Below are positions 13,201-31,279 of a stretch of DNA of 64,000 nucleotides, piece after piece; position 1 is the stretch's first letter; each line of letters begins with the position of its first letter. The notes beneath the pieces are model-generated. The model had not been told where the DNA came from, searched no databases, and saw nothing but the letters and a program-made list of their open reading frames with translations. Location of the stretch: NCBI RefSeq assembly GCF_003353065.1, contig NZ_CP027806.1, positions 620,001 through 684,000 on the forward strand, written 5' to 3'. The DNA is from Cyclonatronum proteinivorum. Lineage in GTDB: Bacteria; Bacteroidota; Rhodothermia; Balneolales; Cyclonatronaceae. A program made the position numbers and the translations under genes.

Positions 13201-13228
13201 GCGCGGCATTTACGGTCCGCTTCAGTAA
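1283..13228 (+). CDS. Giant secreted multidomain protein (3,981 aa)
   Basis: An N-terminal signal peptide (basic start, hydrophobic core about residues 15-32, ending near ETAQA) directs export. Residues about 38-300 look like immunoglobulin/FN3-type modules resembling the TANFOR-type domains of Bacteroidota surface proteins (pattern FTWTPV followed by YVFRI). A Pro-rich linker near 298-305 follows. Residues about 305-2930 are continuous beta-rich, Gly/Ser/Leu-rich sequence with irregular repeats and scattered Cys. About 2940-3430 turns helical, rich in Gln, Glu, Arg and Ala, and probably coiled. The last 550 residues return to FN3/Ig-like strands. The start abuts the upstream stop, and the stop overlaps the next ATG by one base (TAATG). 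An adhesin, surface-layer filament or envelope-spanning structural protein is possible; none is proven. No catalytic motif was seen. Confidence 0.85.
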   Translation: MTRMSTRFSSANIKKTLLFWLAFAVLPGLLIYETAQARQDIAQFTVTGLPPVLGSATYEELRSNYDAGLYQFMFNYSGNTARAFRFQVLFLKNGEILWNDTSNPVTFEPGFFVFENFFEEVSFPGSVSDVLENLPASFINQIIQTGVLPEGSYSFRVTPQAVNLTPPVSIIPSVSNFVVRLPQPPALVMPRDEAIVSLAVPVFTWTPVVAIGNLTVEYVFRIVELLEGQNPEDAMVSNPIYHEQILSQTSLPYTPNLPPLEQGRQYAWQITARDASGEVPFAGDGNSPVFTFSFGEQATPPPPPGSGTPLVLIPDFMELLDWEIWLLPQPGNTFVLNGFTQLRVTLPNGASRSFRVFMNRIMLRDRHNPELLSGSIRFEESIDPLIQMYRDAGLIPQWATFNLPVWSPQGGFRVSTAIALHGIQRIPIGTLNLTQNGLSGTGIANRPGFITFSDGILDARLNSLQAEFPSNQLTAGGTFTLFGSNTPCQITGLSGADSELVGSVNCAVEQQFPLVEGSAAGQLTINRTLGNVSLDLTDNSFGYDLIVRSRIGLLTAEGSYCGTALDMNLNPEGLTPGNARPYACPDARPELDLGLMRLSMQQLTAENLTFDRNAGNWNFELGITGSFRIPEMGNWTSAQQSDLTLSPEGLDLPGINFGTQSVPLPVYNSDPFRVHLNQMETEPLLWPLFGAQLAAPGPWELRFDGTGSTQNAPQLPACLRNLSFEVQNGRIDQDRLIADIPASQLQNCEVSESPYLSLSLEAVSGQFGSRWLIDGSTEPLSALNLSGSFLPGDAFSCGSDNRVSFALGELMFSSGFNGNVPGILQNCNLELGVFSAAITSAEAVFSGGGSVPQQAEINGTAELLLPDGIRIPGSFTRDLITGAFSALDFEINRSFNFAYPAEDELLTFRLNNVRLRENGLAVNGRQLIVMDGQSRGVTFDNAVFSKVSGLMMSGRTLFDEPFALLAEIGTDNDELQIAAVPADAEIAPNSALLLNTNGSLELTPSGIQVSGEASAKLQLNGISVFEEMQAQYHPAFSLFPVYGQSAQVSGHVEVFHEGAWIGVLDNQGVYLTDFDSDFVLPERLMIPGSETAWLQLRDGENWLVDATEDDNGNFAIRALPGVEARLVVPFLNPLEPPVFSDITFDGLVISANQVVPSVLEGRVVAQLSGESWPGTAALPLNLQEISAGWVAGATGNEPALYLSGSPALFDVTFDSSLPLTFYVQNDGVLRGNFDHEPVQALLYFQGEQMRLRARQISGSYTQSGQGMPAVFGFTFDAALELNTGSSWKETSRAAFTYGSSGTVQLTDFDPLPFAEPPSVLLASGLKLLVQRTEGITGFGFVAETGFTGELELLTRLELSIGESLAAFPVSGVVWSGNEVMVPQQQVSRETFPGLTLPVIQYAGYPLSLLAVRLPQAIAFGLPATDQTQLQENAFRFDLQTQLPAWLQQTELNPPDGLLFPDVAYQNGSLSGEMEPFEPLDGAEIPVSQTANNISLLAERLQGTLAGDEGENLLSLNVSGQIATIGGFAPQPGESCGEGTAFTLVISPESDGLSGVINDVSPCGRFGLGPFSLSAESVQLSLGDAHESWVAELQGHFTLHLPGAGGTEQTSDGNISLDLITRRLSSGSFIITDTFEIPMPWNEADPFFFIQGDEAVLDENGFVISGTGSMRSGSAVSTVQYNDLNLRLDQPGILSGSAGIAPDFHIIALLGPGGFLFVSNEEAFDADRKLRIEPEQQVRLDADGFVFSGKGSGALRFSDEAYDSLQLVFEEDFTLNTEGTAITRGAAVVFTEEQLPEADDSFAVLSASGFFIQDRSFVELPDRLMLSDEMVAFAQTRNAANQLLVNVADEGAGYRVSSVGVQRIGLPALTPQGASVIELPAEFSLTTDALYNVTGGTITLMEELPLQTTTAALPATLTGLRFSTSDENHLKAVVQPLLPDLFLGSQTGQELFESEFRLIPGGLAAQLVTFGTTSGQPVEAETVLATVLYEGEGGNSAVTGQFRADITGVIFRSQTEAEPALEVMGRLGVSLLNEGLPSFQFTAVTTVSDLQQEWTWDVQPAGETLFAGQTEIVPDGNVPVNLEVSAQTFVLQLNGLARFTNLPGETLSAAFGGIQFGLSQLDTSPLYSFEAVTATGAQEPQQLILFDGAAGLSLSTYTFAIDEGGLSLTASGNLNFYGESLPFSSLTLSGDGGFEMTDRAVDEEGKWLLSEHLVLHEAGLEILTDEETQQETLALRAEIAYRLPEPFSYTEEPAGFFDYLMYRNDDNEVSTRKEISGFPVSTFPVQAYIQMGTFGRLELTRYMPLLNPFAVAETALHANVAVRTGTQQEGDESDPVIMLGNTEQPGIVVSRTNSGGLGSQVTFTVSSNEPFETGSGLFRLSIPAGAVSMAGSQGTFLLKMGGTAGFDLAQVSSSFPYTGLTVDLGGNVSGGSLEGSLDISVAGIMQLEAGGFYRYHNPDGVQLTITDTRSRTPDALQALIGQSETASVQTTTVSDVLEVLCFGSCPAELTDVPLSTSGNPGSALNFSISAESNNNHGMSGQLERFFMYRTSDGISSMYVEQAQLVFDDLFVAKLDMKYQLQNGEVSLQAAGVGAFSTGLSELETTFAGNYSSVVAANFRRRGGENSFGLFFGISLGAGVTIVPNMFSISQVGGGFFYRPEQQEIDMLQTSLAAFGHDLVNPAGFQQAAGSSFSGMLYGNVGIGPSAGANSKVEGQAFVSISGHHFYIDSRATLMGQRDGDARQVAGMRATGEFAASVLRSGLGQSAILFSMEADFYMPYILSAGGSLEFFYLSRVNQNPLVGFLGAGHISVLGGLQEGEIEILGGNDGFLFSGGLSNTIGIPLFNVTGAVGFSFWAINADFATMPMGGYLSFEAQINLLIATVSADVTAALVERSSGGFAFTGAIRGCSTVNLIVTTEQICADAWFQLANPGGASGGAGSNRGNALIAMAKEQQDTFRSRLGGLRQQVEWVAQSMQQAEDLARIARDRARLQRTVPGGEEVVQAGVNFFGKPLDERQIWVESMRELALQRGPTGAPAPVLANFLNNVALAENPFEPMATEAAESDFEALTASIEEAETILNLFEDFDQSLLAAITLYEESAALFDQMDEAFASNPVANVVRPEPSANPLQSVSFSLDNSRAEQQQSLMSSYLEELRFADLQYRESIDAVSANLDAVRSLMYDDAQTSLMSLTEPFRNTIESFERYYSTEAERLWSTALWARQLSNGFDAFSMNVPTYLGTKVANYRRDSGINQPFARQNVDNEATRHAQRIYFMELLASGAAEPSPWQTGEQNNRPQAAFNALRHSSAIAVGLRAESLREVYDQFYFDMYKNSLPVFEALNLEQMTEVQALRDEHRETVLAPVRALTGQIDNFYTIQANLTALLWNLNNSYVDWRMNMTDAEELLGDAPDIGLYEQAMQQLSLQLQPPQITAIVAEQTVTTNQSMTAADISFVATHPVEIIETAIQYRIGLPLQEGEPIEPDNSFITLGSAPGSNIELTASLFPGEEVISPLRNPHVSLGFRVRGAAGIPAVRRGSFRVANQFNAETIGTPGGSQTESGEVLPISTDPPQAPLVEMGDGFVIHVNEELTEYWVVDRGQINIRLMSHDAVSGIGRFQYALGTSPGDTTEIGWTDLQGERLNLPEIPAEQIRAPFSFQAMQQGIRYYISARVINNDNRRSEETAFPFPIVYESEPPGEPVLGFIPQPGVPFWRKHDTGGMLIEMRSVDSIDEWFFRPYVPNDALWARMSTPIEPAKLAFETVQVSSPPSSGVRHFEYALSRSEEVPIGQFENGDTRIHEVDQPLTITSSLEDPVFRNHKYPMYVHIRAISNFGYPGPIHTSGPYTFEDPTVPWFGTPFVLHRVNRPRDIDIYVWVPPSDPESDVLGYQYSIVQRPRGSYFFDITVPSIVSRDFPAGDAVDIPWNHQMSVDRFFNPNSPPPPLTSALHINTGNIVRLENHDVYLVLRAINTQGYTSMRGIYGPLQ

Positions 13229-15327
13229 TGAATAAAATTATGTTTAAATCATCCTGTATTTTAGCAGCTTTACTGCTGCTTTCACCATTTCGCGAGAACG
13301 TTCAGGCGCAGCCTCAGCTTCAGTCACAACAGTCACAAACGGTTTTGTCTGAGCAGGCGGGGTCCTCCGCACTTGTCATTGCGCCCCATCAGGACGGGCG
13401 GATCTTTCTTTTTCACAATTATAATCTGCCGCTCGGGCATGGATTTAAAGTCTATCGGAATGCGGTAGGTGCGGGTTGGGAGCTTATCACGGATGAAGCT
13501 GTATATCCGGTACAAAACGGCGGTCAGCTTCGTATGCGGTTAAGAGAAAACTGGGAATCCATCTCCCGGGATACAGGTGTAGACGATGCGCAGGCTTTTT
13601 TTCTGATGATGCGGTCCGGCACAACAGACGCACTTGTCACGCTCCTTACGCTGCCGGAGCTGGCACAGGCAATGGGAGCCCTGTTTATTGATGAAAATGG
13701 CCCGTATGGGCAGCATACAGCCTATCGTATAGTAGTAGTGAATGATTTGGGCCTCCCGACCGGTAAAGTACTTGAAAGCGAAGCTTTGCTCGAAGCCAGT
13801 CTGCCCCTGCCGGTTTCAGGACTTAAGGCGGATAACGACGGCAGAACGGTTACCCTCAGTTGGGACTATCCCTCCCTGAATACACCCGGTACGGAGGAAG
13901 TTTTCCGTTTCAGACCCCGTTTCCGGCGTTCGGATGAAAGTCGTGTGCGTAATGTGCTGCCCGGTGTGTTGCTCAGAACTGACAGTAATACAAGCTTTCA
14001 GATTACCTTTGATGTTCCTGTTATGAACACAGCGTATGAGTTCTGGATTGAACCTCAGAATCTTGCCGGACAAACTTCAGAAGACCCGGGCCGCCTTACT
14101 TTTTTTGTGGCGGATAATGCGCCCCCGGCTGCGCTTACAGGTGTTTCCGGCAGTTTAATAAGTGAGGATACCATTGAGATAACATGGCCCGCAAGCACGG
14201 ATATGAATGCAGCAGGCTATCATGTGTATCGGGGCTTTGCCGGTGAAGAAGAGATGATGCGCCTCACTGCTGAACCCGGAGAGCTGCTGATGTTAAGTCT
14301 GACAGATCAGGTACCCAGCCTGGGCCGGCAGTATCGCTACGCTGTGCGTGTACTGGGGCAAAACGGAATAGAGAGCAGCAACAGCAATATTGTAAATATT
14401 GCTGTCCCCGATCTTCGCAAGCCTGAGGCGGTAAGCCATTTGGATGCAATCTTTGACGCTGAAACTAAAACGGTTAAGCTGCAGTGGCAGCATGACCCGG
14501 ATGCGGATAATTTTCGGGGCTATCGGGTGCTGCGCAGCCTCATCACCGGCGGTGAAGCGGCCGGCTATGCACAGCTCAGCAGCAGTGCCATAAACGGACA
14601 GCAGCTCAGCGACCGCGGACCTTCCGGACTTGGCTTTGAAGAAGGCCGCACATTTGTGTATGGTGTCGCTGTAATCAGCAATACCGGTCAGGTGAGCGAT
14701 ACCCTTTTTACGCGGCTTCAGATACCGGTTGTAACTCCGCCTGCACCGCCATCAGCAATACAGGCAGAGCTTAGGGGAGAAACCCGGGCATTCATCAGCT
14801 GGAGCAGTTCACCTTCTCTTGATGTTACCCATTACAGGCTCGAAAGCCATACCCCTGAAGCTTCAGATCAAGCCGAAACGCTTGCCACCCTGCCAGCCAA
14901 TACCCGCAGCTTTACTGCCCGGGGACTCCGGTTGTCACAGCCTTACATATTTGCCGTAACCGCTATTGATTCGGCAGGAAACGAGTCTGATGTCTTGCAA
15001 AGCACCATACTTATTCCGCAGCGTACGACACCGCCGGCGCCCGTCTACAACTTGCAGGTGCGGGCCAGGCATGCCTCTGATACCGGTCCGGCCCGTGTGA
15101 GCCTTGCATGGCAGCATCGTGAAGCGCCTGAATCGGTCTCTTTGTTTCGGGTGTACAGAAGCAATCAGGCATCAGGACTTTTTGAAGCCATTGCTGAGCT
15201 TAGCAGTGAAATATCACGCTATGATGATCCGGATGGTCGCCCGGGATACTGGTATAAAGTTTATCCGGTTGGTGCCAACGGTCTGTCGGCAAGAGAGGCC
15301 CGCCCGGTTCAGGCCGTACTGCGATGA
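13228..15327 (+). CDS. Secreted protein with about five fibronectin type III repeats
   Basis: The 699-residue product has a clear signal peptide (hydrophobic about 9-20, ending in VQAQ). After a leading domain up to about residue 190 it carries tandem FN3-like modules at roughly 195-290, 300-395, 400-495, 505-595 and 600-699. These are marked by recurrent strands such as VTLSWDYP, IEITWPAS, VKLQWQHD and VSLAWQHR and by paired YRVLRS/YHVYRG strands. FN3 modules usually mediate protein or glycan contacts outside the cell. The gene starts within the stop codon of the giant protein and ends before a strong terminator, so it is the last member of this three-gene cluster. I infer an extracellular partner of the giant protein. 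The lack of a recognisable C-terminal sorting domain leaves its anchoring open. Confidence 0.8.
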   Translation: MNKIMFKSSCILAALLLLSPFRENVQAQPQLQSQQSQTVLSEQAGSSALVIAPHQDGRIFLFHNYNLPLGHGFKVYRNAVGAGWELITDEAVYPVQNGGQLRMRLRENWESISRDTGVDDAQAFFLMMRSGTTDALVTLLTLPELAQAMGALFIDENGPYGQHTAYRIVVVNDLGLPTGKVLESEALLEASLPLPVSGLKADNDGRTVTLSWDYPSLNTPGTEEVFRFRPRFRRSDESRVRNVLPGVLLRTDSNTSFQITFDVPVMNTAYEFWIEPQNLAGQTSEDPGRLTFFVADNAPPAALTGVSGSLISEDTIEITWPASTDMNAAGYHVYRGFAGEEEMMRLTAEPGELLMLSLTDQVPSLGRQYRYAVRVLGQNGIESSNSNIVNIAVPDLRKPEAVSHLDAIFDAETKTVKLQWQHDPDADNFRGYRVLRSLITGGEAAGYAQLSSSAINGQQLSDRGPSGLGFEEGRTFVYGVAVISNTGQVSDTLFTRLQIPVVTPPAPPSAIQAELRGETRAFISWSSSPSLDVTHYRLESHTPEASDQAETLATLPANTRSFTARGLRLSQPYIFAVTAIDSAGNESDVLQSTILIPQRTTPPAPVYNLQVRARHASDTGPARVSLAWQHREAPESVSLFRVYRSNQASGLFEAIAELSSEISRYDDPDGRPGYWYKVYPVGANGLSAREARPVQAVLR

Positions 15328-19426: not shown

Positions 19427-19465
19427 ACCCAAAGCGAGGGTTAACACTTAACAGAGGACACGATC

Positions 19466-19906
19466 ATGGGACAACAGCAATTATTACTCGTAATTTTGGT
19501 CACGATCATTGTAGGTATTGCAACGGTAGTTGCGATTAACATTTTCGGATCAAGCGCAGAACAAGCGAATCAGGATGCCGTTCGGCAGGATATGATAACA
19601 ATGGCTGCTCAGGCCCAGGCTTGGTATGCAAGGCCAGCTATGCTTGGCGGTGGTGAAAGAGACTATCAGGGAGACGCTGCTGCAACTCCACAAATCCCAG
19701 GTGTTTCATTTGCTATAGTTGGATTTCCATGTGATGGAGATAATACAGGATGCATAAACCAAAATGGTGAATTTAGTATCACTGCTGTGACACCGGACGG
19801 GTTTACTCTCATTGGTAGACCCAACACCGGAGATGGTTCAGGATTTTCTTTAGCTGTTACAGGGTCGAGCACCAATTACACATGGGGTGCTGTAGGTGCT
19901 AATTAA
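19466..19906 (+). CDS. Type IV pilin-like major subunit candidate with minimal leader
   Basis: The 146-residue protein starts MG, then QQQLLLVILVTIIVGIA, a continuous hydrophobic helix to about residue 27, then an amphipathic helix (SSAEQANQDAVRQDM) and a small globular domain. C89 and C96 could form a short disulphide loop. This is the pilin architecture, but there is no long leader and no Glu at mature position 5; cleavage after G2 would give a two-residue leader. Its own structured leader, AGAGGA ribosome site (about 8 nt before ATG) and a strong terminator just after the gene suggest it is expressed more than the machinery genes downstream, as expected for a major pilin. I infer a pilus or pseudopilus subunit. 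An unrelated membrane-anchored protein is the alternative. Confidence 0.65.
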   Translation: MGQQQLLLVILVTIIVGIATVVAINIFGSSAEQANQDAVRQDMITMAAQAQAWYARPAMLGGGERDYQGDAAATPQIPGVSFAIVGFPCDGDNTGCINQNGEFSITAVTPDGFTLIGRPNTGDGSGFSLAVTGSSTNYTWGAVGAN

Positions 19907-20111: not shown

Positions 20112-21449
20112 ATGTCACAATTCCGATTCATAGGGCTCGCTCCCAACGGGCGAACAGTACAGGCCGAATTCGATGTGCCTTCCAAGCAGGAGGCGAAGAA
20201 GAAGGCTGAACTGATCGTGCGCAAGCGTGGCATTAAGCTGGAAAAGCTGCTCGAGAAAAAGACCTGGCTCTACAAAGGCCGCCGTGCCGGCGCTAACTGG
20301 GTTGAAGGCGAACAGGATGCCTTTGCCAAAGAGGATGTCGAAGCCGCCCTTCAGCGCCTCGGGTTTACCGATGTAAAGGTGAAGCCCAAAATGGTTCTAT
20401 ACAAACCCGGCGTGCCCACCGATGACGTCGTGACCTTCATCCGGCTTTCAGCTGACCTGCTCAAGCAAAAACTCGCCTTCGATGAAATCCTGACGCTCCT
20501 CATCGAAGATACCTCCAACCCCCGCATGCGCGAGGTCATCCGCCAGATTCAGAAAGACCTGCAGGATGGCAAGGAAGGCCGCGAAGTGTATCACAAACAC
20601 GCAGATGTATTCGGCACTTTTGCAGCTTACATGCTTGGCGTTGCGACCACCTCCGGTAACATTGCCGAGATTTTTGAAAGCACGGCCAAATTCATGGAGC
20701 GCGATGCAACCTTCAAGAAGAATTTGCGCCGCTCCCTGCTGATGCCGGGGATCACAGTGCTTGCGGTGATTGGCGTAGTATTGTTTTATGTAGGCTACAT
20801 CTTTCCGACAACGGCAGAGATGTTTTTGCGCTTCGATATTGAGCTGCCACCCATGACCGCCGCAACCCTGGAATTCAGCTATTGGATAACCTCATACTGG
20901 GTCTGGATTCTGCTCGCACACGTCGTTCCGATCGTTAGCCTGATTCTTGCGCTTCGTACCTACAAAGGCAAACTGCTCTTCGATAAATATGTGATAAAGG
21001 TGCCGCTCATTGGAGATCTCATTCACAAAACAAGCATCGAAATTTTTGCACGGGTCTTTTACACGCTGTACAGCGGTTCCGGCCAAAACATTGAAGTCAT
21101 TCGTATCGCTTCTGAAGCCTGCCGCAACACGTACATGGAAAAGCAAATCAAGGAAGTAGCCATCCGAATGATGCTTGACGACGGCCGCGGCCTCATCGAA
21201 TCCCTTGAAGCCACCGGCGTTTTCACACATACCGCATTAAGCCGGTTCAAGCTCGGGGTAGAGTCGGGTTCCCTCAAAGACAACGCCCTGCAGCTCGCCA
21301 ACTATTACGAAACACAGACGAGCTACAAGATGAACTCTCTCATCGATACCATCAACCTGCTCATCAACCTGTTCATCATGATCGCACTCATTGGTATCAC
21401 CATTGTTTCCTCTGAGTCAGCGGTCATCAAACCGAAATCACAATTCTAA
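20112..21449 (+). CDS. Type IV pilus / type II secretion inner-membrane platform protein (PilC/GspF family)
   Basis: The platform protein sits in the inner membrane, contacts the assembly ATPases and guides pilin extraction. The 445 residues show an N-terminal cytoplasmic part (MSQFRFIGLAPNGRTVQAEF, about 1-120) and the first T2SSF helical domain (FIRLSADLLKQKL... GNIAEIFESTAKFMER). Membrane segments lie near 215-235 and 260-285. A second T2SSF domain follows (SIEIFARVFYTLYSGSG ... SRFKLGVESGSL), with a last membrane helix near 410-432. The family repeat of two domains is complete. It is followed after 15 bp by the PilB-like ATPase. The extended N-terminus with an extra charged region (about 60-95) is somewhat unusual. 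Confidence 0.93.
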   Translation: MSQFRFIGLAPNGRTVQAEFDVPSKQEAKKKAELIVRKRGIKLEKLLEKKTWLYKGRRAGANWVEGEQDAFAKEDVEAALQRLGFTDVKVKPKMVLYKPGVPTDDVVTFIRLSADLLKQKLAFDEILTLLIEDTSNPRMREVIRQIQKDLQDGKEGREVYHKHADVFGTFAAYMLGVATTSGNIAEIFESTAKFMERDATFKKNLRRSLLMPGITVLAVIGVVLFYVGYIFPTTAEMFLRFDIELPPMTAATLEFSYWITSYWVWILLAHVVPIVSLILALRTYKGKLLFDKYVIKVPLIGDLIHKTSIEIFARVFYTLYSGSGQNIEVIRIASEACRNTYMEKQIKEVAIRMMLDDGRGLIESLEATGVFTHTALSRFKLGVESGSLKDNALQLANYYETQTSYKMNSLIDTINLLINLFIMIALIGITIVSSESAVIKPKSQF

Positions 21450-21464: not shown

Positions 21465-23249
21465 ATGTTGGCCATTAGCAGCATAAAGCGAAAAATCGGG
21501 GACACCCTTCTTGAGGCAGGGGTCATTACCGAAGCTATGCTGTCAGAAGCTATGGACGTGATGGACCGCGAGCCTGAGCATCAGCGGCGCAGGCTGCCAA
21601 CCATTCTGATTCAGGATTTCGGTGCGGATGAGCAGGCTGTCATGCGTCAGGTAGCCGTTTTATATGCTTTTAACGAGGTTGGCCTTGGAGATACCTACAA
21701 ATCGCAGGAGCAGTTGCATCGCTGCCGTCATGCGGTTAACCTGCTTCCTGAAAGCTTTATTAGTGAGCTGATTGCTGCAAATGCGGTTCCCTGGTATGCG
21801 AGCGGTAACAAAATCCTGATTGCTACCTCTGACCCGCTGGAGCGTAAGCTCACCAACCTTACAGAGAAACTTCCTTTTCGGCATCACGAAATTGCCTACC
21901 TGCCATCCGATAAACTGAAGGTTGTTTCAGGACAGGTGTATGAGCTGAAAAATGAGTTTCTGGAGCTGCTGGAAGAATACAGCTCCGGTGTTGATTACCT
22001 CGATGAGGAAGAGGAACTGCTAACTGAAGAGCAGATTGATGCCGAAATCAACCAAAGCATGCTCAACTCCCTGGTTGAGGGGATGCTGGTTGAAGCCGTT
22101 CGCAAAGATGTAAGCGATATCCACGTCATTCCGGTTGATAAGTCCAATTCCAACATCTTCTTCCGGGTTGACGGTAAGCTTCAGCTGTGGATCAAGCAGA
22201 ACAACATCCGACCTGAAGCTTTGTGCGCAGTCATCAAAGACAAAACCCAGAATGTGGACCGCTTCGAGCGCGATATGTCGCAGGACGGGTTTATTCAGCG
22301 GATGGTTGACGGGCATCAGATCCGCTACCGGGTTTCCATCATTCCGATGGTGGGGGCGGACTTCAACCGGAAGTTTGAAAGCATCGTCATCCGGATTCTG
22401 GACGACCGGAAAGTCATTACCGACCTTGAGAAACTCGGACTTCAGCCGAATGCCAAAAAGGTGTTTGTTAAAGCAATCAGCAAGCCATCGGGAATCGTCA
22501 TCATCACTGGTCCGACAGGCAGCGGAAAAAGCACGACCCTCGTTGCGGCGCTGTATGCGGTAATCGACCCGAGCGTGAATGTGCTCACCGTCGAAGAGCC
22601 GGTAGAATATCTGATCAGGGGCGCACGTCAGCTCAAAATCAGCGACAAAATGAGTTTCGACCTGGCCATGCGCGGCATTCTGCGTCACGACCCTGACATC
22701 GTGCTTGTAGGGGAGATAAGGGATCTAAAAACAGCTGAGATCGCCATCAAACTGGCCAACACCGGTCACCTCACCTTTTCGACCCTGCACACCAACGATG
22801 CCCCGAGTGCAGTCTCGCGGCTGTACAAAATGGGGATTGAGCCCTTCCTGATTGCGACTTCCATCAACCTGGTGATGGCGCAGCGACTCATCCGAAAACT
22901 CTGTGAAGTATGTAAGCGCCCCGCTGATAAAGATGAACCTCTTCAGGAGGTTGCGAAAGTAGTAGGATTTAAGGAAGAAGAAATAGCAGCAACTACTTTC
23001 TATGAGCCGGTGGGCTGTTCACGCTGTAATAAGGGATATAAGGGGCGGATGGCAATTTATGAGGCCCTTTTTTTTGATAAGGAGATCAAAAAAATTATTT
23101 ATGATTCGGGCAATAATATTGATGAGGATTTGATCCGCCAGACCGCGATCCGAAACGGGATGCTAACGCTGAGGGCCTCCGGCCGTCTCCGCATCGTGAA
23201 CGGTCACACAAGCCTTGCTGAAATTCTGGCTGCAACGATAGATGATTAA
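21465..23249 (+). CDS. Assembly ATPase of the PilB/GspE family
   Basis: This hexameric ATPase powers pilin extension from the cytoplasmic side. The N-terminal 150 residues resemble the GspE N-terminal (MshEN) domain. The Walker A is GPTGSGKST (349-357), the Walker B is VLVGEIRD (about 413-420) and the His box is TLHTNDA. The tetracysteine zinc site of PilB/GspE proteins is complete at C480, C483, C518 and C521 (CEVC and CSRC). A normal length of 594 residues and all motifs argue that it is active. It lies directly after the platform gene and before a cNMP-binding-fold gene, in the same operon. Confidence 0.95.
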   Translation: MLAISSIKRKIGDTLLEAGVITEAMLSEAMDVMDREPEHQRRRLPTILIQDFGADEQAVMRQVAVLYAFNEVGLGDTYKSQEQLHRCRHAVNLLPESFISELIAANAVPWYASGNKILIATSDPLERKLTNLTEKLPFRHHEIAYLPSDKLKVVSGQVYELKNEFLELLEEYSSGVDYLDEEEELLTEEQIDAEINQSMLNSLVEGMLVEAVRKDVSDIHVIPVDKSNSNIFFRVDGKLQLWIKQNNIRPEALCAVIKDKTQNVDRFERDMSQDGFIQRMVDGHQIRYRVSIIPMVGADFNRKFESIVIRILDDRKVITDLEKLGLQPNAKKVFVKAISKPSGIVIITGPTGSGKSTTLVAALYAVIDPSVNVLTVEEPVEYLIRGARQLKISDKMSFDLAMRGILRHDPDIVLVGEIRDLKTAEIAIKLANTGHLTFSTLHTNDAPSAVSRLYKMGIEPFLIATSINLVMAQRLIRKLCEVCKRPADKDEPLQEVAKVVGFKEEEIAATTFYEPVGCSRCNKGYKGRMAIYEALFFDKEIKKIIYDSGNNIDEDLIRQTAIRNGMLTLRASGRLRIVNGHTSLAEILAATIDD

Positions 23250-23274: not shown

Positions 23275-23763
23275 ATGACCACGCTCCGGGAACAAAATAA
23301 TACGACCATAGAAAATATTCAGGAAAACCCGCCTGCACTGTTTCGGAATATGCCGAAGAAAGACCTGGGAGATTTGCTGCAATCAGCTGTGCAGCGAAAG
23401 GTTGAAGCTTTCGAAGAGCTTCTGCCGGGTTTTCCCGATGGCAATGGTCATGGATTTCTGGTGCTTGAAGGCATAGTTGAAGCCCGGAAAAACGGAACCA
23501 TTATAGAGCAGTTTTCGGCTGGTGATTTTATCGGGGAAGCTTTTCTGCATTCAAAAGCACAGCTCAGCTGCGACCTGACGGCCACAGTGCCTGCAGTTGT
23601 GCTCATTTTCAACAGAGGTGATGTGGTTCAGTTTTTCAGAACCCGACCAGAGAAACTACTCAAAATCTACACCATGAATGTGATTGAGGCGCAACACAAG
23701 CACATCATTGGGTTGTACAAAAGAATCGTATCCGGTGACACACAGTTGCAGGTAAGTTTGTGA
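23275..23763 (+). CDS. Cyclic-nucleotide-binding-fold protein without effector domain
   Basis: Residues about 20-150 fit the cNMP-binding jelly roll (FLVLEGIVEARKNG, then QFSAGDFIGEAFL, then LIFNRGDVVQFF) with a C-terminal helix (LLKIYTMNVIEAQHKHI). There is no DNA-binding or enzyme domain. In the phosphate-binding cassette GE is present, but the Arg that binds the cyclic phosphate is replaced (SCDLTA region), so cAMP binding is doubtful. Located between the PilB-like ATPase and the minor-pilin-like genes, it may be a regulator or structural adaptor of the ATPase. This is inference from context. Confidence 0.7.
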   Translation: MTTLREQNNTTIENIQENPPALFRNMPKKDLGDLLQSAVQRKVEAFEELLPGFPDGNGHGFLVLEGIVEARKNGTIIEQFSAGDFIGEAFLHSKAQLSCDLTATVPAVVLIFNRGDVVQFFRTRPEKLLKIYTMNVIEAQHKHIIGLYKRIVSGDTQLQVSL

Positions 23764-23896: not shown

Positions 23897-24310
23897 ATGA
23901 ATGCCAATCAGCTTTTACTCGCACTTGGTGCCCTTCTGCTGCTTATGATTGTAACGACTACCCTCAATCGTACCTACATTTTGGCACTGTCAGAAACGAT
24001 TGAAAACCAGCTTCGTTTCGAGGCCGTCAATTATGCCCAATCATTAACAGAACTGGTATTTAGTGCTTCTGAAGAGTTTGATCAGCTTGATGCCTTATTG
24101 GGGGGCATGAACAACATCAACGATCCGCAAAAACGCTTTTCGAGAGTTACCCTTTTTGGAGATAGCCTTTTTGCCATCATCAGCCTTACCCCCGACACAA
24201 CCCTGCCGCTCGGGATTACAGGCCGGATTGCCCACATCCAGGTTTTTTCAAGGCAAAACGAATTCTTTCAGGCGGAAGCAGAAACACGTGCAACTATTAA
24301 CAGGAGATAA
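23897..24310 (+). CDS. Minor pilin-like protein A
   Basis: The 137 residues begin MNANQLLLALGALLLLMIV, a hydrophobic helix almost at the extreme N-terminus, followed by an amphipathic helix (NRTYILALSETIENQ) and a short beta-rich domain (about 75-130). This copies the plan of the 19466 pilin-like protein, again without a classical G-F-x-x-x-E leader. A GAGG motif precedes the ATG by about 10 nt. The next gene starts 2 bp after the stop, and together with that gene and the following one it forms a minor-pilin block like gspHIJK/pilVWX. The specific role is inferred. Confidence 0.6.
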   Translation: MNANQLLLALGALLLLMIVTTTLNRTYILALSETIENQLRFEAVNYAQSLTELVFSASEEFDQLDALLGGMNNINDPQKRFSRVTLFGDSLFAIISLTPDTTLPLGITGRIAHIQVFSRQNEFFQAEAETRATINRR

Positions 24311-24312: not shown

Positions 24313-24810
24313 ATGCATGCACTCACACAAATCATAGTACCGCAAATCATCGTAGGGTTGCTCATTCTTCTGATTTTTAATGTGCAGCTCAAGATGATGG
24401 ATTCCTCCGTAGAAAATCAGGTCATGGCAGACCTGCAGAACCGCGCCGATACGGGAGTGTTGCTGCTTCAGGAATACGCCCGGGATATCCGGCAGGTTGA
24501 GCTTGCTGCGGCTGATTCGCTCAGCTACCTCGACGCTCAGGGAAATAACGTTGTGATATTCCGCGACGCCCGCCTTATGAAAGTTCAGGTTACAGAAGCA
24601 GGGACCAACAGTATCAGCACCTATCAGTACAACCTGATGCTCTCTGCAATGGTTTTTGAAATGGTGTCTGTTTTGGGGCAGCCGCAGGCCATCCTGCGGG
24701 TACATATTAATACAGAAAGTACGCCTGAAATGGAGCCGGGAACCCGTACGCACCGGTACCGGGCTTTTGCAACACGTGATATTTTCCTGCGCAACGCCAT
24801 TCTAAACTAA
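24313..24810 (+). CDS. Minor pilin-like protein B
   Basis: The 165 residues start MHALTQIIVPQIIVGLLILLIFNV, a hydrophobic N-terminal helix, then a polar helix (MMDSSVENQVMADLQNRAD) and a beta-rich domain with Tyr and Val strands. No signal peptidase site is visible, and no Glu5 in a standard prepilin context. An AGGAGA site lies about 5 nt before the ATG. Tight spacing with both neighbours (2 and 12 bp) points to co-translation. I infer a pseudopilin-type subunit by position and architecture; sequence similarity to a named pseudopilin was not recognised. Confidence 0.55.
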   Translation: MHALTQIIVPQIIVGLLILLIFNVQLKMMDSSVENQVMADLQNRADTGVLLLQEYARDIRQVELAAADSLSYLDAQGNNVVIFRDARLMKVQVTEAGTNSISTYQYNLMLSAMVFEMVSVLGQPQAILRVHINTESTPEMEPGTRTHRYRAFATRDIFLRNAILN

Positions 24811-24822: not shown

Positions 24823-26142
24823 ATGGGAAACTATGCGCTCATACTGGTAATGGCCCTTAGTTTCGCTATTGCCATTTATACGGTTAACATAAACCAGCAG
24901 GTGCTGATTAGTGAAAACCAGGTTACAGAATCGTTTAGCACAAGTCAGGCCAGAAACGTGGCTCAGAGTGCTGCGCAGATAGCCGTCGCGAAAATCCTGA
25001 ATGGTGCTGATACACAGTTTAATCCGGCATCAGGCGATGTCATCCTGTTCCCGGTTGATGGTATCAGCTTTGAGCCCTGGCCCGAGCTTGGAGGATTCTA
25101 CAGACTTCGAATTGAAAATCATGCGGACACCCTGCTGCAGTTGCAGGCCATAGGTGTGTTTGGGAACCAGCAATATCCGGTAAACGTCAGTTTTAGCCCA
25201 TCAGCACAAAAAGCAAGTTTCCCCAATATTGATAAGGCTGTATTCTCAAGAAATTCCATCCGAATGGAGGGCAGCGCCCGCATTTTAGGGCCTGCCGGTA
25301 CCAATACGATTTCCAACAGCGGTGTCTTCTTTGCATGGTCGCCGCGGGTTGAAGGTTCTCTCTCGATTGGGCCGGGTGGTTTACCTTCAAGCGTTGTGCA
25401 TCAAACCAATAGCGGCGGCAATGTGGACGGGAATATTCTGGTGCTTCCGGAAGAGCGTGATTATCCGCTTCCCGTATTCCCTGATTTCCCCGTAGGAAAC
25501 CCTACCGGTACGTCAGTTCACCTGACCGGTATCATGACACAGACCCTGTTGCCTTCTGACTATCATGGGTTATTCCTGAATCAGGTTAGCCTTGAAAATG
25601 ACACCCATCTTTACATCCAAACCGGCGGTCAGCACCGGGAGCTTTTTGTCAACAACTTGACCATAAACCAGGGACATATCCATATTCTTGGCGGTGGTTC
25701 GCTTACGATTTACGTGCAAAACAGCTTTACGCTAACAGGAAGCAGTACCGTAAATAACAATGCTGCAAGCGATGTAATGATGTTTTACAGTGGTTCAGGA
25801 GAGGTGAATGTAGGGGGAAATACCCGCTTCAGAGGGCACCTTTTTGCTGAAACAGCCAATGTGCGTGTTGCCAATTCGGGCGGATTTACGGGCCACATAA
25901 TTACGGGCGGGACCAGCGTGATAGTAAGCGGCGACGCCACAGCCATATCACGTGTACTTTACGCACCCAATGCACATGTTCGGTTTGAAGGCAGCGGAAG
26001 AGTACGGGGTGCAGTGGTTGCTAATACATTTTTTATGGGTGGCGACACCCGCGTTATTTATGACGAAGACTGGGAAATGGATCCCCCGGACCTTGACTTC
26101 GATATCACTGAGATGGCTTTTCAGGTAAGCCAATGGAATTAA
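24823..26142 (+). CDS. Minor pilin-like protein C with C-terminal beta-helix (PilX/GspK-like position)
   Basis: The N-terminus MGNYALILVMALSFAIAIYTV is a hydrophobic helix followed by the long amphipathic helix usual for PilX-type proteins (FSTSQARNVAQSAAQIAVAKIL). Residues about 60-120 form a small beta domain. About 215-410 look like a right-handed parallel beta-helix with short repeated strands and many Gly, Asn and Ser, resembling bactofilin-like and DUF7305-type regions found in large pilin-like proteins. An AAGGAG ribosome site lies 6 nt before the ATG. At 439 residues it is far larger than the other pilin-like proteins, so it could sit at the filament tip and make contact with substrate or surface. 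Confidence 0.6.
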   Translation: MGNYALILVMALSFAIAIYTVNINQQVLISENQVTESFSTSQARNVAQSAAQIAVAKILNGADTQFNPASGDVILFPVDGISFEPWPELGGFYRLRIENHADTLLQLQAIGVFGNQQYPVNVSFSPSAQKASFPNIDKAVFSRNSIRMEGSARILGPAGTNTISNSGVFFAWSPRVEGSLSIGPGGLPSSVVHQTNSGGNVDGNILVLPEERDYPLPVFPDFPVGNPTGTSVHLTGIMTQTLLPSDYHGLFLNQVSLENDTHLYIQTGGQHRELFVNNLTINQGHIHILGGGSLTIYVQNSFTLTGSSTVNNNAASDVMMFYSGSGEVNVGGNTRFRGHLFAETANVRVANSGGFTGHIITGGTSVIVSGDATAISRVLYAPNAHVRFEGSGRVRGAVVANTFFMGGDTRVIYDEDWEMDPPDLDFDITEMAFQVSQWN

Positions 26143-26233: not shown

Positions 26234-27457
26234 ATGGTACTACAAACACGACCCGCCCCGGTTTGGGAAAGCCTGAATATTCCTTTTCATGTGCCCATCG
26301 ATAACAGGATTGAGCTCTATCAGGAGTTTCTCGGCAGGCAAAACGACTCCATCAGGCAACAGATGCGGACTTACATGGAAAGTCTGCTGCTTGCAATGCT
26401 TGATATTGAAGCGTCAGATATCGATATGGGGGGAAGCGGCTGTTCCGGGTATGTCTGGTACCGTATCCACGGTGACAAAAAGCCGGTGCGGGAGGAAACC
26501 TATGATCTGGCCGAAACAGATCTGTACCTGCTTAACCTGCTTACTGACCGGCAGATTGAAAAGCTGCTGCACGAGCACAGCATTGATTTCTCCTACTCCA
26601 TTATTCTCGAAAACGGCAGGGAACAGCGGTTCCGGGCGACCATCTACAAAGACCTGAATCACATCGCCCTGAACATGCGAAAGATCAATGAAGAAATCCG
26701 GCCATTCAAATCTTTCGGTTTTCACCCTGAGGTTGCGCGGGCACTGAGCCTGAACTACATCAAATACGGCCTCACCCTGGTGACAGGAATTACCGGCTCG
26801 GGAAAATCATCCACCCTTGATGCCATCATTGATGCCAACAACCGAACCTGCGATGCCCACATTGTAATTATTGCTTCTCCGGTTGAATTGGTGCATAAAT
26901 CCAAACGATGCATCGTGCGCCATCGCGAAGTGGGCCGGGATGTGCGGTCGTTCCGGCACGGAGCCGTGGAATCGCTGCGACAGGACCCGGATATCATCAT
27001 GATCGGGGAGCTTCGCGATGAAGAAACCATCAAAACCGCGCTTGAAATAACCGATTCCGGGCACAAGATTTTTTCGACCCTGCACACCGCATCTGCCACG
27101 GAAAGCATCGACCGGATTATCGGGGAGGTAAATGTAAATCAGCAGGAGCGGGTGCGGAACCGGCTTGCGGATGTACTCACCTGCGTCATCAGTCAGAAAC
27201 TCGTTCCTTCCACCGACGGAAAGCGGGTGCTTGCCAAAGAAGTACTGCTGGCAACACCTTCGGTTAAAGCCGCCATCAGAAACAACAATCTGGGGGAGAT
27301 TTATCAGATGATAAATGAGGGCGGTGCCATTGGGATGGTTACGCTCGAACAGGATCTGAAACGGTTGTATCTGGAGCGTAAAATTACGCTTGAAAATGCC
27401 AAAGGCTATGCGAACAACAAAACCCGCATCCGCGAACTTCTTAACCTTGACGCCTAA
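26234..27457 (+). CDS. PilT-like retraction-type ATPase
   Basis: This is a second secretion-type ATPase of 407 residues. The Walker A is GITGSGKSS (185-193), the Walker B region is DPDIIMIGELRDEET and the His box is FSTLHTASATESIDRI. There is no tetracysteine zinc site and the N-terminal domain is short, which separates it from PilB and fits PilT/PilU proteins that depolymerise pili. The N-terminal 60 residues are slightly longer than in classical PilT. Its stop overlaps the next ATG by one base. Its presence beside a PilB-like enzyme suggests a dynamic, retractable filament rather than a pure secretion pseudopilus. Confidence 0.88.
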   Translation: MVLQTRPAPVWESLNIPFHVPIDNRIELYQEFLGRQNDSIRQQMRTYMESLLLAMLDIEASDIDMGGSGCSGYVWYRIHGDKKPVREETYDLAETDLYLLNLLTDRQIEKLLHEHSIDFSYSIILENGREQRFRATIYKDLNHIALNMRKINEEIRPFKSFGFHPEVARALSLNYIKYGLTLVTGITGSGKSSTLDAIIDANNRTCDAHIVIIASPVELVHKSKRCIVRHREVGRDVRSFRHGAVESLRQDPDIIMIGELRDEETIKTALEITDSGHKIFSTLHTASATESIDRIIGEVNVNQQERVRNRLADVLTCVISQKLVPSTDGKRVLAKEVLLATPSVKAAIRNNNLGEIYQMINEGGAIGMVTLEQDLKRLYLERKITLENAKGYANNKTRIRELLNLDA

Positions 27458-29196
27458 TGTTTAAGCCCAAAATTATTTACGGTCTCAAAGTGAATGATGA
27501 GCATTTGCAGGTTGTCCGGTTCGAAAAAAACGGCAAAGTGCTCAAAGCTGTGGCAATCAGGCAGGTCGATCTCAGCGGGCTATTGTCGGGACGGGAAAAA
27601 GAGCTTGAAGGCGGAAGTACGACCGAAGATGTTTTTGGATTTGAGGAGCAAGAGGAACAACTTGTTGGTGCCGCTGCTGCCGCTGCTTCTGCAAAGTCTA
27701 ATGGGGACACCCTTGATACGCTGGAAGATTTGGGCTTTGACCTCGACGGAGATGAAGGGTCAGACAGCTGGACTGTAGGATCAGAAAACACTCAGGATGA
27801 TGAAATGGTGACCGTGGTGAGTGCGCTCGACCGCGTGTTCATCGAGTTCAACGATAAAAAAATCAACCTTGCTTTTGTGATGCCTACCGGCAGCACATCC
27901 TGGTTTACCCTCAGCATTCCCCCTGATCTTAAATCGCAAAAGCAAAAGGCTGCCTACATTGAAGACCGCCTTTCCCGGGTTTATAACCAGCAGATGCCAG
28001 AACCTGATACCTACAAATGGGTACATACCACGGATAACAAGGTGCTCATCGGAAGCTGCCCTGACAGCATCCTGTTGCTGGAACTGCTTGAGCGGCTCAA
28101 CTACACCCGTCAGCAGACTTATTTTTTGAGGGCCTGCCTGCCTGAAGAAGTCGCCCTCATGCAGTATGTTGAAGTGAAAAATAAAAAAGGAGAAGCGGAG
28201 GAACAGGAGGGCAGCAGTATACTCATTGATTTTGGGGTGTCATCAGCCCGAATCACCATTATCAAAAACGGGATTATTCAGTCTGCTATGCCCCTTATTC
28301 CGCGGGTGAATCAGGTTTCGGCTTATGCGAACAAGGTCTTCAGCCGGATGCTGATGGAGCTCGAGAAAGGGGATGTAAAGTTCATCAGTGAAATTATCAT
28401 TAACGATGGTATTGGGGCTGAAGAACTGCTTATGGATATCTTTGAGTCCACATTTATGTCGCTCCCCTGCAAAATCCTAAAAGCGGATCAGCATGAGCGC
28501 ATAGAAACGGCCCCTTCACTTAAGCAGCAGGTTCCTCCTGCGATTGCAGGAGCTGTACTCGCAGCCTGGGGTAAACCGAGCAATCTAACGCAGGGAATGA
28601 GCTTTATTCCCAGACACGTGCAAGACCGTCAGAAAATATTTAAGCTTCAATGGCACGGTGTGATGTTACTCATCTGTATTGCAGCCGTACCCATAGTAGT
28701 GAATAATTTGTACCACAGCACGCAGTTCCAGCTTAATGATGCGAGGCGGGAGGCCGAGTTGCTGCAAATGCAGCTCTTCGAGGCCCGTGGCATTGCTGAT
28801 ACCGTAAGGGAGTTTGACGGAAGAAATGCACAGCTTTTACGGCAGCTCGGAGAGATGGAAGAACTCGGTCAGGGCACCCGGATGTGGAGTACCACCCTTG
28901 AAATGCTGCATGCAGGCCTTCCTGAAATTCGGAGTACCTGGATCACCAGCATGCAATACAGCAACAATGTACTTATTCTGGAAGGCACAACCATGCTTCG
29001 TCAAAATATACCTCTTGTGGCTAATCTGTTTTATGAAGCCGGTGTTCAACAGGTATCAGCGGTAGAAATCAGAGATCGTCAGTTCTACAATTTCAGAATT
29101 ATTGTGAATCGGATTACACGCGACCCCGCTGACTTCAACCCGGTTGTGCCACCGCCACCACCCCGTGAAAACACCCTTGCAGGAGGTCAGCAATGA
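27457..29196 (+). CDS. PilM-PilN fusion (GspL-like alignment protein)
   Basis: Residues 1-390 look like an actin-like PilM domain (IIYGLKVNDEHLQVVRF; later SILIDFGVSSARITIIKNG). The domain is interrupted at about 45-125 by an acidic, Ala-rich insertion. A single membrane helix lies at about 399-418 (HGVMLLICIAAVPIVV). It is followed by a coiled segment and a PilN-type periplasmic domain (STTLEMLHAGLPEIRSTWIT; NIPLVANLFYEAGVQQVSAVEI). Classical systems have separate PilM and PilN, while type II GspL has the fused plan. The gene overlaps the PilT-like gene by 1 base and the next gene by 4 bases, implying coupled translation. It should link the ATPase ring to the periplasmic alignment complex. 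Confidence 0.75.
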   Translation: MFKPKIIYGLKVNDEHLQVVRFEKNGKVLKAVAIRQVDLSGLLSGREKELEGGSTTEDVFGFEEQEEQLVGAAAAAASAKSNGDTLDTLEDLGFDLDGDEGSDSWTVGSENTQDDEMVTVVSALDRVFIEFNDKKINLAFVMPTGSTSWFTLSIPPDLKSQKQKAAYIEDRLSRVYNQQMPEPDTYKWVHTTDNKVLIGSCPDSILLLELLERLNYTRQQTYFLRACLPEEVALMQYVEVKNKKGEAEEQEGSSILIDFGVSSARITIIKNGIIQSAMPLIPRVNQVSAYANKVFSRMLMELEKGDVKFISEIIINDGIGAEELLMDIFESTFMSLPCKILKADQHERIETAPSLKQQVPPAIAGAVLAAWGKPSNLTQGMSFIPRHVQDRQKIFKLQWHGVMLLICIAAVPIVVNNLYHSTQFQLNDARREAELLQMQLFEARGIADTVREFDGRNAQLLRQLGEMEELGQGTRMWSTTLEMLHAGLPEIRSTWITSMQYSNNVLILEGTTMLRQNIPLVANLFYEAGVQQVSAVEIRDRQFYNFRIIVNRITRDPADFNPVVPPPPPRENTLAGGQQ

Positions 29197-30035
29197 GTTA
29201 CAGTTTGCGGAATACCCTTCTGCTTGCAGCAACGCTTCTACTGATGATCTGCATCGGCAGTTTGTGGCTTTATTTTGGCAGCTATAAGGAGTTAGGCGAG
29301 ATAGAAGAAAAAAATGAGGTCCAGCGGGCCGAGTTTTTAAGGCTGAATGCCATTGCTGTTCGGTTTACGGAAGTTTTTGAACAGAACGAGACCCTTACAC
29401 ACCGTATTGACCATTACCCCAAAACCCTGTTTCCCAGCCACAGACTCCCGCACCTGTACGATTACCTGCGCTTAGCTGACCGCGGGTCCGTGTTTATGAA
29501 CTTCACATTTTCTGACAGCACTGCACAGGGTAATTACGGACGCATGCGGTTTAATGTGGACGGTGTCGCTGACTACCGGCAGCTGCGTGATTTTATCTAT
29601 ACCGTTGAGCATTCAAGCCCGACAGTACGCATCACTGACTTGCAACTGCGGCCTACCAGCAATCAGGATAACCTCCATGAAGTTGGCTTCCGGATGAACC
29701 TCGCTGCTTTCTACAACCGGGGCGGCAGGAACGTGATCCCGACCTACGCCGAGCAAATTCGGGGTGAACTCCCGCACAACCCCTTCTTCCCGCTCATTCA
29801 CGGTGTAGCGCCCAATGCCAACAATCTGATCGAACCGGAGCGCTCCCGCCTGCAGGCCATCACCGATCAGGCCATCTTCCTGTACGATCAGGGAAATCAG
29901 CTCAGGCGGCTTCAGCTGCGTGAGCGGGTGCATCTGGGCTACCTGGAAAGCATTTCGGCAGAGCGAAGCGAAGCGACCTTCCTGCTAAACAAAGGCGGCA
30001 TCATCGAACGCGTAACGTTGAGGATAAACCCATGA
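29193..30035 (+). CDS. PilO-like alignment protein with PilP-like C-terminal region
   Basis: The 280-residue protein has one N-terminal membrane helix (about 6-27), a coiled segment (EIEEKNEVQRAEFLRLN) and a ferredoxin-like domain typical of PilO (about 80-180; FTFSDSTAQG, VADYRQLRDFIYTVE). The C-terminal 90 residues (NPFFPLIHG, then strands with DQAIFLYDQGNQLRRLQLRERVH in two pieces) resemble the PilP/GspC homology region that touches the secretin. A separate pilP gene is absent, so a PilO-PilP fusion is inferred. It starts with an ATGA overlap with the upstream gene and overlaps the secretin gene by 4 bases. No lipoprotein signal is present. Confidence 0.6.
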   Translation: MSYSLRNTLLLAATLLLMICIGSLWLYFGSYKELGEIEEKNEVQRAEFLRLNAIAVRFTEVFEQNETLTHRIDHYPKTLFPSHRLPHLYDYLRLADRGSVFMNFTFSDSTAQGNYGRMRFNVDGVADYRQLRDFIYTVEHSSPTVRITDLQLRPTSNQDNLHEVGFRMNLAAFYNRGGRNVIPTYAEQIRGELPHNPFFPLIHGVAPNANNLIEPERSRLQAITDQAIFLYDQGNQLRRLQLRERVHLGYLESISAERSEATFLLNKGGIIERVTLRINP

Positions 30036-31279
30036 AAAACAAATTCAAATATCAAAAAATGTTCCGCCAGATCTTTTGTGTACGCGTGATGGTTTTGCTG
30101 CTTTTTAGCGCGCTCATGCTCATGCCCGCGGCATCTGTGCAGGCGCAGGAACGGCTACCCATCCGGGAGTTCACGCCGCACAATGCTGTGGTTGTACTTG
30201 ACCGCAACCTGAGTTTCGACCATGCCGTGCGTATTCTGAGCGACTTTTCCACCAGACTCGATAACCGTGTTATTCTTAACATGAGCAGCTTCACCGGACC
30301 CATCGGACTGGGCATACCCGGTCTGCACTGGTTTGATACACTCGACCTAATTGCCAACTACAATCAGCTTGATGTCGTAACCCTGCCCGACCGGATTGAA
30401 GTCCGCGACCGGATAGTACCTGCGGCGCAGGCAGCCGCTGAGCGCGGAAGGGCACCCGCACGGCGTATTTATGCGGATACCCGTGAAATCGAAATTTCGG
30501 CAACCTTCTTCCAGGGCGACCGTCGTTTCCTCCGGGAAATCGGGGTGAACTGGTCGGCCATCCGGAACGGTATCGTGGAAGTTGCCAGCCTTGGCGCAAG
30601 CACGGTGAGCGAAGCGCAGTTTTCAGCCGGGGTGAACATCAGTGAGATGGTCGGAACCGGTCAATGGCAGGTTGATGCTCTCCTGAATACCCTCGAAGCC
30701 ATCAACAAAGGTGAAATACTGTCCTCACCGACCATCAAAGTGATGGAGGGGGAAGTCGGACGCATTCAGGTCGGGCAGGATTTTTCCATCAAACAGCGGG
30801 ACTTTGCCGGCAATATCATCGATCAGTTTTACAGCACCGGTACCATTCTCACCGTAACCCCCTGGCTGATCACAACCGATGATGTGCCTTTTATCTACAT
30901 GGAAGTCATGGCCGAAAGAAGCTCGGCCCAGCCTGATGCCGTAAGTACTATTATCAACAAGCAGGAAGCAACCACCAAGGTATTGCTTGTTGACGGTGAA
31001 ACAACCGCCATTGCCGGACTGTACGAAACCGAACAAAGTACTGTACGGCGTGGCGTACCGCTGCTCAAAGACCTGCCCCCGTGGTTTTTTGGCCTTCGCT
31101 ACCTGTTCGGCTTTGAAACGGTGCAGCACACGCAGCGTGAACTCATTATTGTGATACAGGCAAAACTTGTCCCTGGTATCGAAGATCGGATACAACAAGA
31201 ATCAATGAGCCGCATGGAGCTCATACGCCGCGAGTCTGAACAGCTCCGCCGGCAACATCAGCTGCCCTCAGATGAGTAA
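30032..31279 (+). CDS. Outer-membrane secretin, short form (PilQ/GspD family)
   Basis: This forms the outer-membrane gate of the apparatus. A long signal peptide ends near residue 39 (ASVQAQ). One N-domain follows (about 45-125). The secretin core (about 150-385) carries the family strands: REIEISATFFQGD, NTLEAINKGEILSSPTIKVMEG in two pieces, VGQDFSIKQ, GTILTVTPWL and the C-terminal block TTAIAGLYETEQSTVRRGVPLLKDLP. At 415 residues it is much shorter than classical PilQ or GspD (600-750), having lost AMIN or extra N domains. The last 35 residues are charged and helical. It is the last gene before a strong terminator, and its order after M-N and O-P matches pilMNOPQ. Confidence 0.9.
   Translation: MKNKFKYQKMFRQIFCVRVMVLLLFSALMLMPAASVQAQERLPIREFTPHNAVVVLDRNLSFDHAVRILSDFSTRLDNRVILNMSSFTGPIGLGIPGLHWFDTLDLIANYNQLDVVTLPDRIEVRDRIVPAAQAAAERGRAPARRIYADTREIEISATFFQGDRRFLREIGVNWSAIRNGIVEVASLGASTVSEAQFSAGVNISEMVGTGQWQVDALLNTLEAINKGEILSSPTIKVMEGEVGRIQVGQDFSIKQRDFAGNIIDQFYSTGTILTVTPWLITTDDVPFIYMEVMAERSSAQPDAVSTIINKQEATTKVLLVDGETTAIAGLYETEQSTVRRGVPLLKDLPPWFFGLRYLFGFETVQHTQRELIIVIQAKLVPGIEDRIQQESMSRMELIRRESEQLRRQHQLPSDE

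Follow-up and report, generated by a model that had tools for sequence, protein, structure and literature searches.

Whether a type IV pilus can be built from a pilin that carries no leader to be removed is the question raised by an operon in the genome of Cyclonatronum proteinivorum, the first gene of which encodes a pilin-like protein that opens directly with the type IV pilin helix (MGQQQLLLVILVTIIVG). The operon lies within a stretch of 64,000 nucleotides (hereafter the window), corresponding to positions 620001–684000 of a complete genome that consists of one contig of 4,294,247 bases (4.29 Mb); the host belongs to the order Balneolales as judged from the relatives of the window proteins. 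A glutamate at mature position 5 (Glu5) is usual, though not universal, in class III prepilins. In reviews, the class III leader is a defining feature of type IV pilins and processing of the prepilin a prerequisite for assembly (PMC10191384), and the prepilin peptidase is counted among the parts that every such machinery is said to contain (PMC4471445). What was found is leaderless synthesis, a predicted pilin-like fold, a set of pilus machine genes and, in the complete genome, no detectable peptidase. The reading that we favor, with a probability of roughly 0.8, is that of a distinct clade of type IV pilus machines, in which primary translation products are assembled without prepilin processing, removal of the initiator methionine being the most that would occur.

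Leaderless synthesis and predicted fold of the pilin

The N-terminus of the 146-residue protein reads MGQQQLLLVILVTIIVGIATVVAINIF in the translation of its open reading frame (ORF), the first residues being MGQQQLLLVILVTIIVGIATVVAINIFGSSAEQANQDAVRQDM. Its first charged residue is Glu32, with no Lys, Arg, Asp or Glu before it, so that the protein has neither a basic leader nor a Glu5 in any numbering, exactly as had been claimed in an earlier interpretation made from the letters of the DNA (the sequence-only reading). That reading had also raised the possibility that the annotated start is wrong, on which the following features bear:

19442..19444, + strand: in-frame TAA stop 5' of the pilin start, which excludes a longer N-terminal leader
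19453..19458, + strand: purine-rich AGAGGA resembling a Shine–Dalgarno (SD) sequence, about 8 nt before the pilin ATG
19466..19906, + strand: leaderless major type IV pilin, 146 residues, with a helix at 2–55 followed by a beta sheet

The TAA and the ATG are separated by 7 sense codons, none of which is usable as a start. Relatives of the protein were collected in two rounds. A first search of bacterial and archaeal genomes gave 460 relatives from the Balneolota, KSB1, Ignavibacteria, Melioribacteraceae, Kryptonia, Neomarinimicrobiota and Calditrichota, the best 80 of the 460 being taken as loci. Because MGQQQLLL was among its seeds, and the diverse alignment of 42 sequences was thus partly seeded with this motif, the search was repeated with a profile over whole genomes, and 163 distinct homologues were tabulated, now including proteins that start with MANKE, MGNRE, MGTKQ, MAQTQ and similar sequences, all of them leaderless. 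Within the alignment of 42, the members of which share as little as about 31% identity with the window protein, M1, G2, Q3, Q4 and Q5 are invariant and the N-terminal helix is the best conserved part of the pilin; on the evidence of these sequences, the conservation of the leaderless N-terminus is far beyond chance.

The start codon stands at the same position in all 163 homologues (ATG in 158, GTG in 3, TTG in 2), with a median of 3 codons back to the preceding in-frame stop, with an in-frame start further upstream in only 3 of them, and with an SD-like sequence 5' of the start in 122. Since the codon varies in place while G-x-Q-Q is retained after it, it behaves as an initiation codon, and a wrong start is ruled out by the in-frame stops together with the alternative start codons at the identical position; the annotated start of the window pilin is certainly correct. 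Residue 2 is Gly in 158 homologues, Ala in 4 and Ser in 1, residue 5 is Gln in 156, Glu in 5, Thr in 1 and His in 1, and residues 2–8 carry no net charge in 161/163. The whole-genome profile search found 2–7 copies of the leaderless pilin in several genomes, which suggests variant or alternative major pilins; 3–7 copies, often in tandem, were seen in G093, G120, G139, L064 and L074.

The AlphaFold model, computed from the 42 homologues (predicted local distance difference test score, pLDDT, of 90), has a helix of 54 residues and then a beta sheet, that is, the lollipop fold in which a long N-terminal helix is packed on a sheet. The window pilin is matched by no Pfam or NCBIfam pilin model, and a Foldseek search of the PDB with its structural model gave no significant match (nothing below E 0.3), so the fold was recognized only in a second look with VIA-align, in which the first 15 rows are all type IV pilins. 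The best is Thermus PilA4 (Z 9.3 over 112 residues, root-mean-square deviation 3.2), with meningococcal PilV (Z 8.4), Pseudomonas PilE (Z 8.3) and the full-length PAK pilin (Z 7.7 over 123 residues) among the others.

These comparisons also set the register of the N-terminus. In the VIA-align superposition, residue 4 of the model falls on mature residue 1 of the PAK pilin and residue 28 on residue 25, while truncated pilins align with an offset of 2–3. A sequence-profile match to the Geobacter pilin (E 0.001) has an offset of 3, with profile position 9 on mature residue 6; an hhalign comparison with Escherichia coli GspG is weak and also offset by 3, and that with E. coli PpdD was uninformative. 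Judged from sequence and model together, the primary product would be about 3 residues longer than a mature pilin, or 2 if the methionine is removed, with Leu8 at the site of Glu5 and Q3 at −1, although an error of about one residue in the register is possible along the hydrophobic helix. The “two-residue leader” of the sequence-only reading is thus better described as no leader, as residue 4 is the one that aligns with mature residue 1.

Prepilin peptidase and classical prepilins across genomes

For this N-terminus the sequence-only reading had left a choice between an unusual peptidase that cuts after G2 and the lack of any cut, and the check that it suggested, a search for homologues of PilD, the prepilin peptidase, proved decisive. 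None was detected in the complete genome and none in the operon, which supports the second option: PF01478 had no match in the genome even at E ≤ 10, PF06847 (the archaeal peptidase part) gave chance-level matches only, and PF07963 (N_methyl, the class III prepilin signature) had none. PF01478 alone was judged insufficient to establish absence, as at its default threshold it misses real, short peptidases of some Bacteroidota. A profile, A2, was therefore built from 11 peptidases of the GTDB phylum, divergent Bacteroidota forms included, and it detects the five peptidases missed by PF01478 (in G011, G016, G021, G088 and G103). Since G016 and G088 contributed rows to A2 and G011 is closely related to G016, the independent controls are G021 (E 5e-14) and G103 (E 6e-16). 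In the window genome, A2 found only a 42-residue chance match with an internal stop.

The five divergent peptidases are short (about 150–170 residues) and are a pitfall for any survey of peptidase absence. A separate observation concerns the classical pilins of family f19 (L160 and L161, from genomes G021 and G142), the leaders of which apparently end in Ser and not in Gly or Ala (MAAGKLKS/FTLSELIV and MSKNKIKS/FTLSELLIV, the slash marking the end of the leader); in the genomes concerned, the peptidase is divergent or undetected.

The leaderless pilin was found in 55 out of 148 genomes sampled from the GTDB phylum, and all 55 have the platform protein PilC. By PF01478 and A2, the peptidase is absent from 48 of these 55, the window genome included, A2 giving only partial chance matches in them (E 0.02 or worse), and only one of the 48 (G078) has an N_methyl match, a single one. 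The other 7 have a peptidase, and all 7 have N_methyl prepilins as well as more T2SSF matches than one PilC gene yields. PilC without the leaderless pilin occurs in 23 genomes, with a peptidase in 21 of them. Among the 55 genomes with the leaderless pilin, the association of the peptidase with classical prepilins has a Fisher p of 4e-8, with relatedness ignored. A second set of 28 genomes, reached via the homologous loci, overlaps the first (G173 and G065, for example, share peptidase coordinates), and its counts are not added to it; here the peptidase was found in 11, each with N_methyl prepilins, and 17 lack it, with a single weak N_methyl match in one of the 17. Both systems are present in most members of the KSB1, Calditrichota and Neomarinimicrobiota, while several cultured Balneolota isolates (Gracilimonas, Fodinibius, Rhodohalobacter) have the leaderless pilin and no peptidase that could be found, Gracilimonas mengyeensis, Fodinibius sediminis and Rhodohalobacter sulfatireducens being examples. 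The peptidase follows the classical prepilins, not the leaderless system.

The same division is seen in PilC itself. Among 71 PilC proteins placed in a tree, a branch with a Shimodaira–Hasegawa-like approximate likelihood ratio test (SH-aLRT) value of 100 separates the 54 that come from leaderless loci from the 17 classical ones, and classical PilCs of genomes with both systems fall among the 17. Long branches lead to the E. coli rows and to some others, and relations among the classical PilCs are not readable; the split itself is clear, and the tree would be compatible with a single origin of the PilCs associated with leaderless pilins. The latter measure about 445–490 residues versus 355–415 for classical PilCs of the same phylum, and the extra length, which sits before the first T2SSF domain, might be an adaptation to unprocessed pilins. 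A congeneric genome (G119, 98% complete) has neither the leaderless pilin nor PilC, the system having been either lost within the genus or missed in a fragmented assembly.

The operon and its minor pilins

The pilin is followed in the window by these genes:

20112..21449, + strand: PilC/GspF platform protein (T2SSF, E 4e-28, over cut-off)
21465..23249, + strand: PilB-like extension ATPase with an MshEN-like N-terminus (T2SSE, E 1.5e-98)
23275..23763, + strand: protein with a cyclic-nucleotide-binding domain, between PilB and the minor pilins (PF00027, over cut-off)
23897..24310, + strand: leaderless minor pilin, GspI-like model (from start context and from the predicted model compared with XcpV and EpsI)
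24313..24810, + strand: leaderless minor-pilin-like protein (from start context and a family of 23)
24823..26142, + strand: leaderless PilX/GspK-like minor-pilin-like protein with DUF7305 (PF23981, E 8e-21)
26234..27457, + strand: PilT-family retraction ATPase (TIGR01420, 320.1 bits, cut-off 319.1)
27457..29196, + strand: PilM/GspL-like protein, assigned by position and architecture only
29193..30035, + strand: PilO/GspM-like protein (T2SSM_b, E 3e-4, and PilO, E 6e-3, both below cut-off)
30032..31279, + strand: PilQ/GspD-like secretin (PF00263, E 2e-28)

The order pilin–PilC–PilB–...–PilT–PilM–PilO–secretin recurs in most of the sufficiently long loci examined, in the Balneolota, Ignavibacteria and KSB1 and partly in the Rhodothermia, and a candidate peptidase gene was found neither in the window operon nor as a conserved member of the homologous loci. 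The best NCBIfam match of the PilB-like ATPase is TIGR02538 (PilB, E 3e-130), below the equivalog cut-off. The PilM-like protein has no Pfam or NCBIfam match, and its gene keeps its place in the operon across loci. The cyclic-nucleotide-binding protein is retained in several Balneolota loci and is possibly a regulator of the pilus, the functions of which could include DNA uptake, ComEC being encoded in the genome, adhesion or twitching.

The minor-pilin-like proteins starting at 23897, 24313 and 24823 have the N-termini MNANQLLLALGALLLL, MHALTQIIVPQIIVGLLILL and MGNYALILVMALSFAIAIY, respectively, and each ORF is preceded by an SD-like sequence and, at a distance of 4 codons, by an in-frame stop. 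The model of the first (pLDDT 72.5) has its nearest structural counterparts in the minor pseudopilins GspI (XcpV, Z 8.7; EpsI, Z 8.1), and the family of the second has 23 members, all starting close to the hydrophobic helix. An iterative search from the third found no relatives on its own, and similar proteins starting with MGR hold its place in other loci, the minor pilins of the homologous loci being leaderless too. The sequence-only reading had described the three as sharing the style of the major pilin, which holds for the missing leader but not for the MG start, since residue 2 is Asn, His and Gly, respectively. With Asn or His at this position in two of the three, there is no shared rule of cutting after Gly, and in the major pilin G2 is out of the −1 register; cleavage after G2, one of the two options of that reading, is not supported.

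Elsewhere in the window, an ORF at 1283–13228 (+ strand, 3981 residues) with no Pfam match at E ≤ 1e-3 is directly followed by that of a 699-residue fibronectin type III protein (13228–15327).

Proposed assembly of unprocessed pilins and its implications

In the model that we propose, the pilin would be inserted into the inner membrane with its N-terminus inside by means of its hydrophobic helix, following which methionine aminopeptidase would trim at most the initiator methionine where residue 2 is small (Gly, Ala or Ser, as in all 163 major pilins); the minor pilins in which position 2 is Asn or His should, from the known specificity of this enzyme, retain their methionine. Having no charged leader on the cytoplasmic side, the pilin could then be extracted and polymerized directly and without proteolysis by PilC and PilB, the genes of which are present, with the PilT-family ATPase retracting the filament and the secretin passing it through the outer membrane. 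The conserved Gln3–Gln4–Gln5 (residue 5 is Gln or Glu in 161/163 homologues) may speculatively assume the charge-neutralizing role that Glu5 has in the core of the filament. Loss of the leader would have made the prepilin peptidase dispensable, to be retained only alongside a second, classical pilin system. On a wider scale, it appears likely, and is stated here with slightly less assurance than the model itself, that a major lineage (Balneolota, Rhodothermia, Ignavibacteria, KSB1 and their neighbors) polymerizes unprocessed primary products, which would make this the first type IV filament to be independent of prepilin peptidase, leader, N-methylation and Glu5 alike.

It has to be noted that several points weigh against this model. 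Removal of the leader is required for assembly in those classical systems that were tested (PMC8546353, PMC10191384), unprocessed prepilin is expected to stay in the membrane (PMC8546353), and Glu5 mutants fail to homopolymerize (PMC4471445), so that an uncompensated leaderless pilin without Glu5 would not be expected to assemble. We infer filament formation by the leaderless system from its genes and predicted folds, and the N-terminus that the pilin would have in the filament is likewise read from the coding sequence. The claim that the peptidase is absent can be no stronger than the profiles behind it, and one control genome that does have a classical pilin (G142) is peptidase-negative with both. 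As to the classical requirements, the proposed answer is that the block to assembly would be the projecting leader, which is absent here, and that the core of the pilin would be adapted. The same requirements, by which lack of processing or of Glu5 would each abolish assembly, are what speaks for subunits that form no filament, being either membrane-anchored parts of a secretion or sensing complex or a degenerate remnant. We regard this as quite unlikely, given an intact operon kept from the Balneolota to KSB1 with a secretin and a PilT-family ATPase that exceeds its curated cut-off, a pilin-like fold with the N-terminal helix as its most conserved part, and the multiple pilin copies of several genomes.

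Processing by other means would also contradict the model. A non-homologous peptidase outside the A24 family could remove MG (or MGQ) and leave Q3 or Q4 as the mature N-terminus, which would fit the structural placement of mature residue 1 at residue 4 and the near-invariant G2, Gly or Ala being likewise needed before the cleavage site of prepilins. This is unlikely, as G2 is not at −1 in the sequence and structure registers, the Asn and His of the minor pilins would have to be accommodated, the operon has no conserved candidate gene, and methionine aminopeptidase explains the small residue at position 2 equally well. That a very divergent A24 peptidase is present and was missed is suggested by the failures of PF01478 at its default threshold and by the negative control genome, but is very improbable, since A2 finds all five divergent cases yet gives only chance matches in the 48 leaderless genomes, and since there is no leader to cleave. 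Finally, a relationship of the protein to the MacB periplasmic core domain and not to pilins was considered, because 16 of the 42 family members have sub-threshold PF12704 matches (best E 7e-6). The window protein itself scores 23.6 bits against a curated cut-off of 27, no ABC transporter or ABC ATPase gene is found in the operon, which consists of pilus machinery, and the structural neighbors are pilins, so the similarity was taken as a resemblance of transmembrane helices and this explanation is in practice refuted by context and fold.

The proposed leaderless system shares with type IVa pili (PilA, PilB, PilC, PilT, PilMNO, PilQ) the extension ATPase, the PilT-family ATPase, the platform, a PilO-like protein, the secretin and the pilin-like fold, and its minor pilins resemble the H-I-J-K set; it differs in that its pilins have neither class III leader nor Glu5, in that the genome has no peptidase and in its longer PilC. 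Mannose-sensitive hemagglutinin (MSHA) pilins keep class III leaders, of which the window pilin has none. The MSHA loci likewise lack a prepilin peptidase gene in the locus itself (Denise et al. 2019, PMC6668835), but a peptidase gene is then always present elsewhere in the genome (PMC6668835), provided by another system, whereas the window genome has none. The peptidase occurs in all phyla analyzed except Nanoarchaeota, in which it is likewise undetectable, and some species have machine genes without a recognizable prepilin (PMC4471445); archaeal class III pilins, however, still have leaders, while the window system is leaderless and has genes of the bacterial type IVa kind. No description of leaderless pilins or of a peptidase-free bacterial type IV pilus was found in the open-access literature, preprints and subscription journals aside.

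If the model is correct, it would explain bacteria with seemingly incomplete pili. In the 2013 genome paper of Melioribacter roseus, pilT, pilQ, pilB and pilC were found, pilA and pilD were “not found”, and the pilus was judged probably incomplete (PMC3534657). Another Melioribacteraceae genome, the metagenome-assembled genome (MAG) L073, has leaderless pilins beside PilC, on the basis of which a leaderless pilin would explain the missing pilA in M. roseus. Pilin finders that depend on the leader (PF07963, PilFind, SignalP class III, and models that need a recognized major pilin) would miss leaderless systems, so that counts of type IV pili from this region of the bacterial tree are probably too low. 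The bacteria of this group appear to do without a step of pilus building that is regarded as universal, and a lineage without leader, Glu5 and peptidase would separate the purpose of the leader from the needs of polymerization, so that the debated roles of Glu5 and of N-methylation would become testable in a system that evolved without them.
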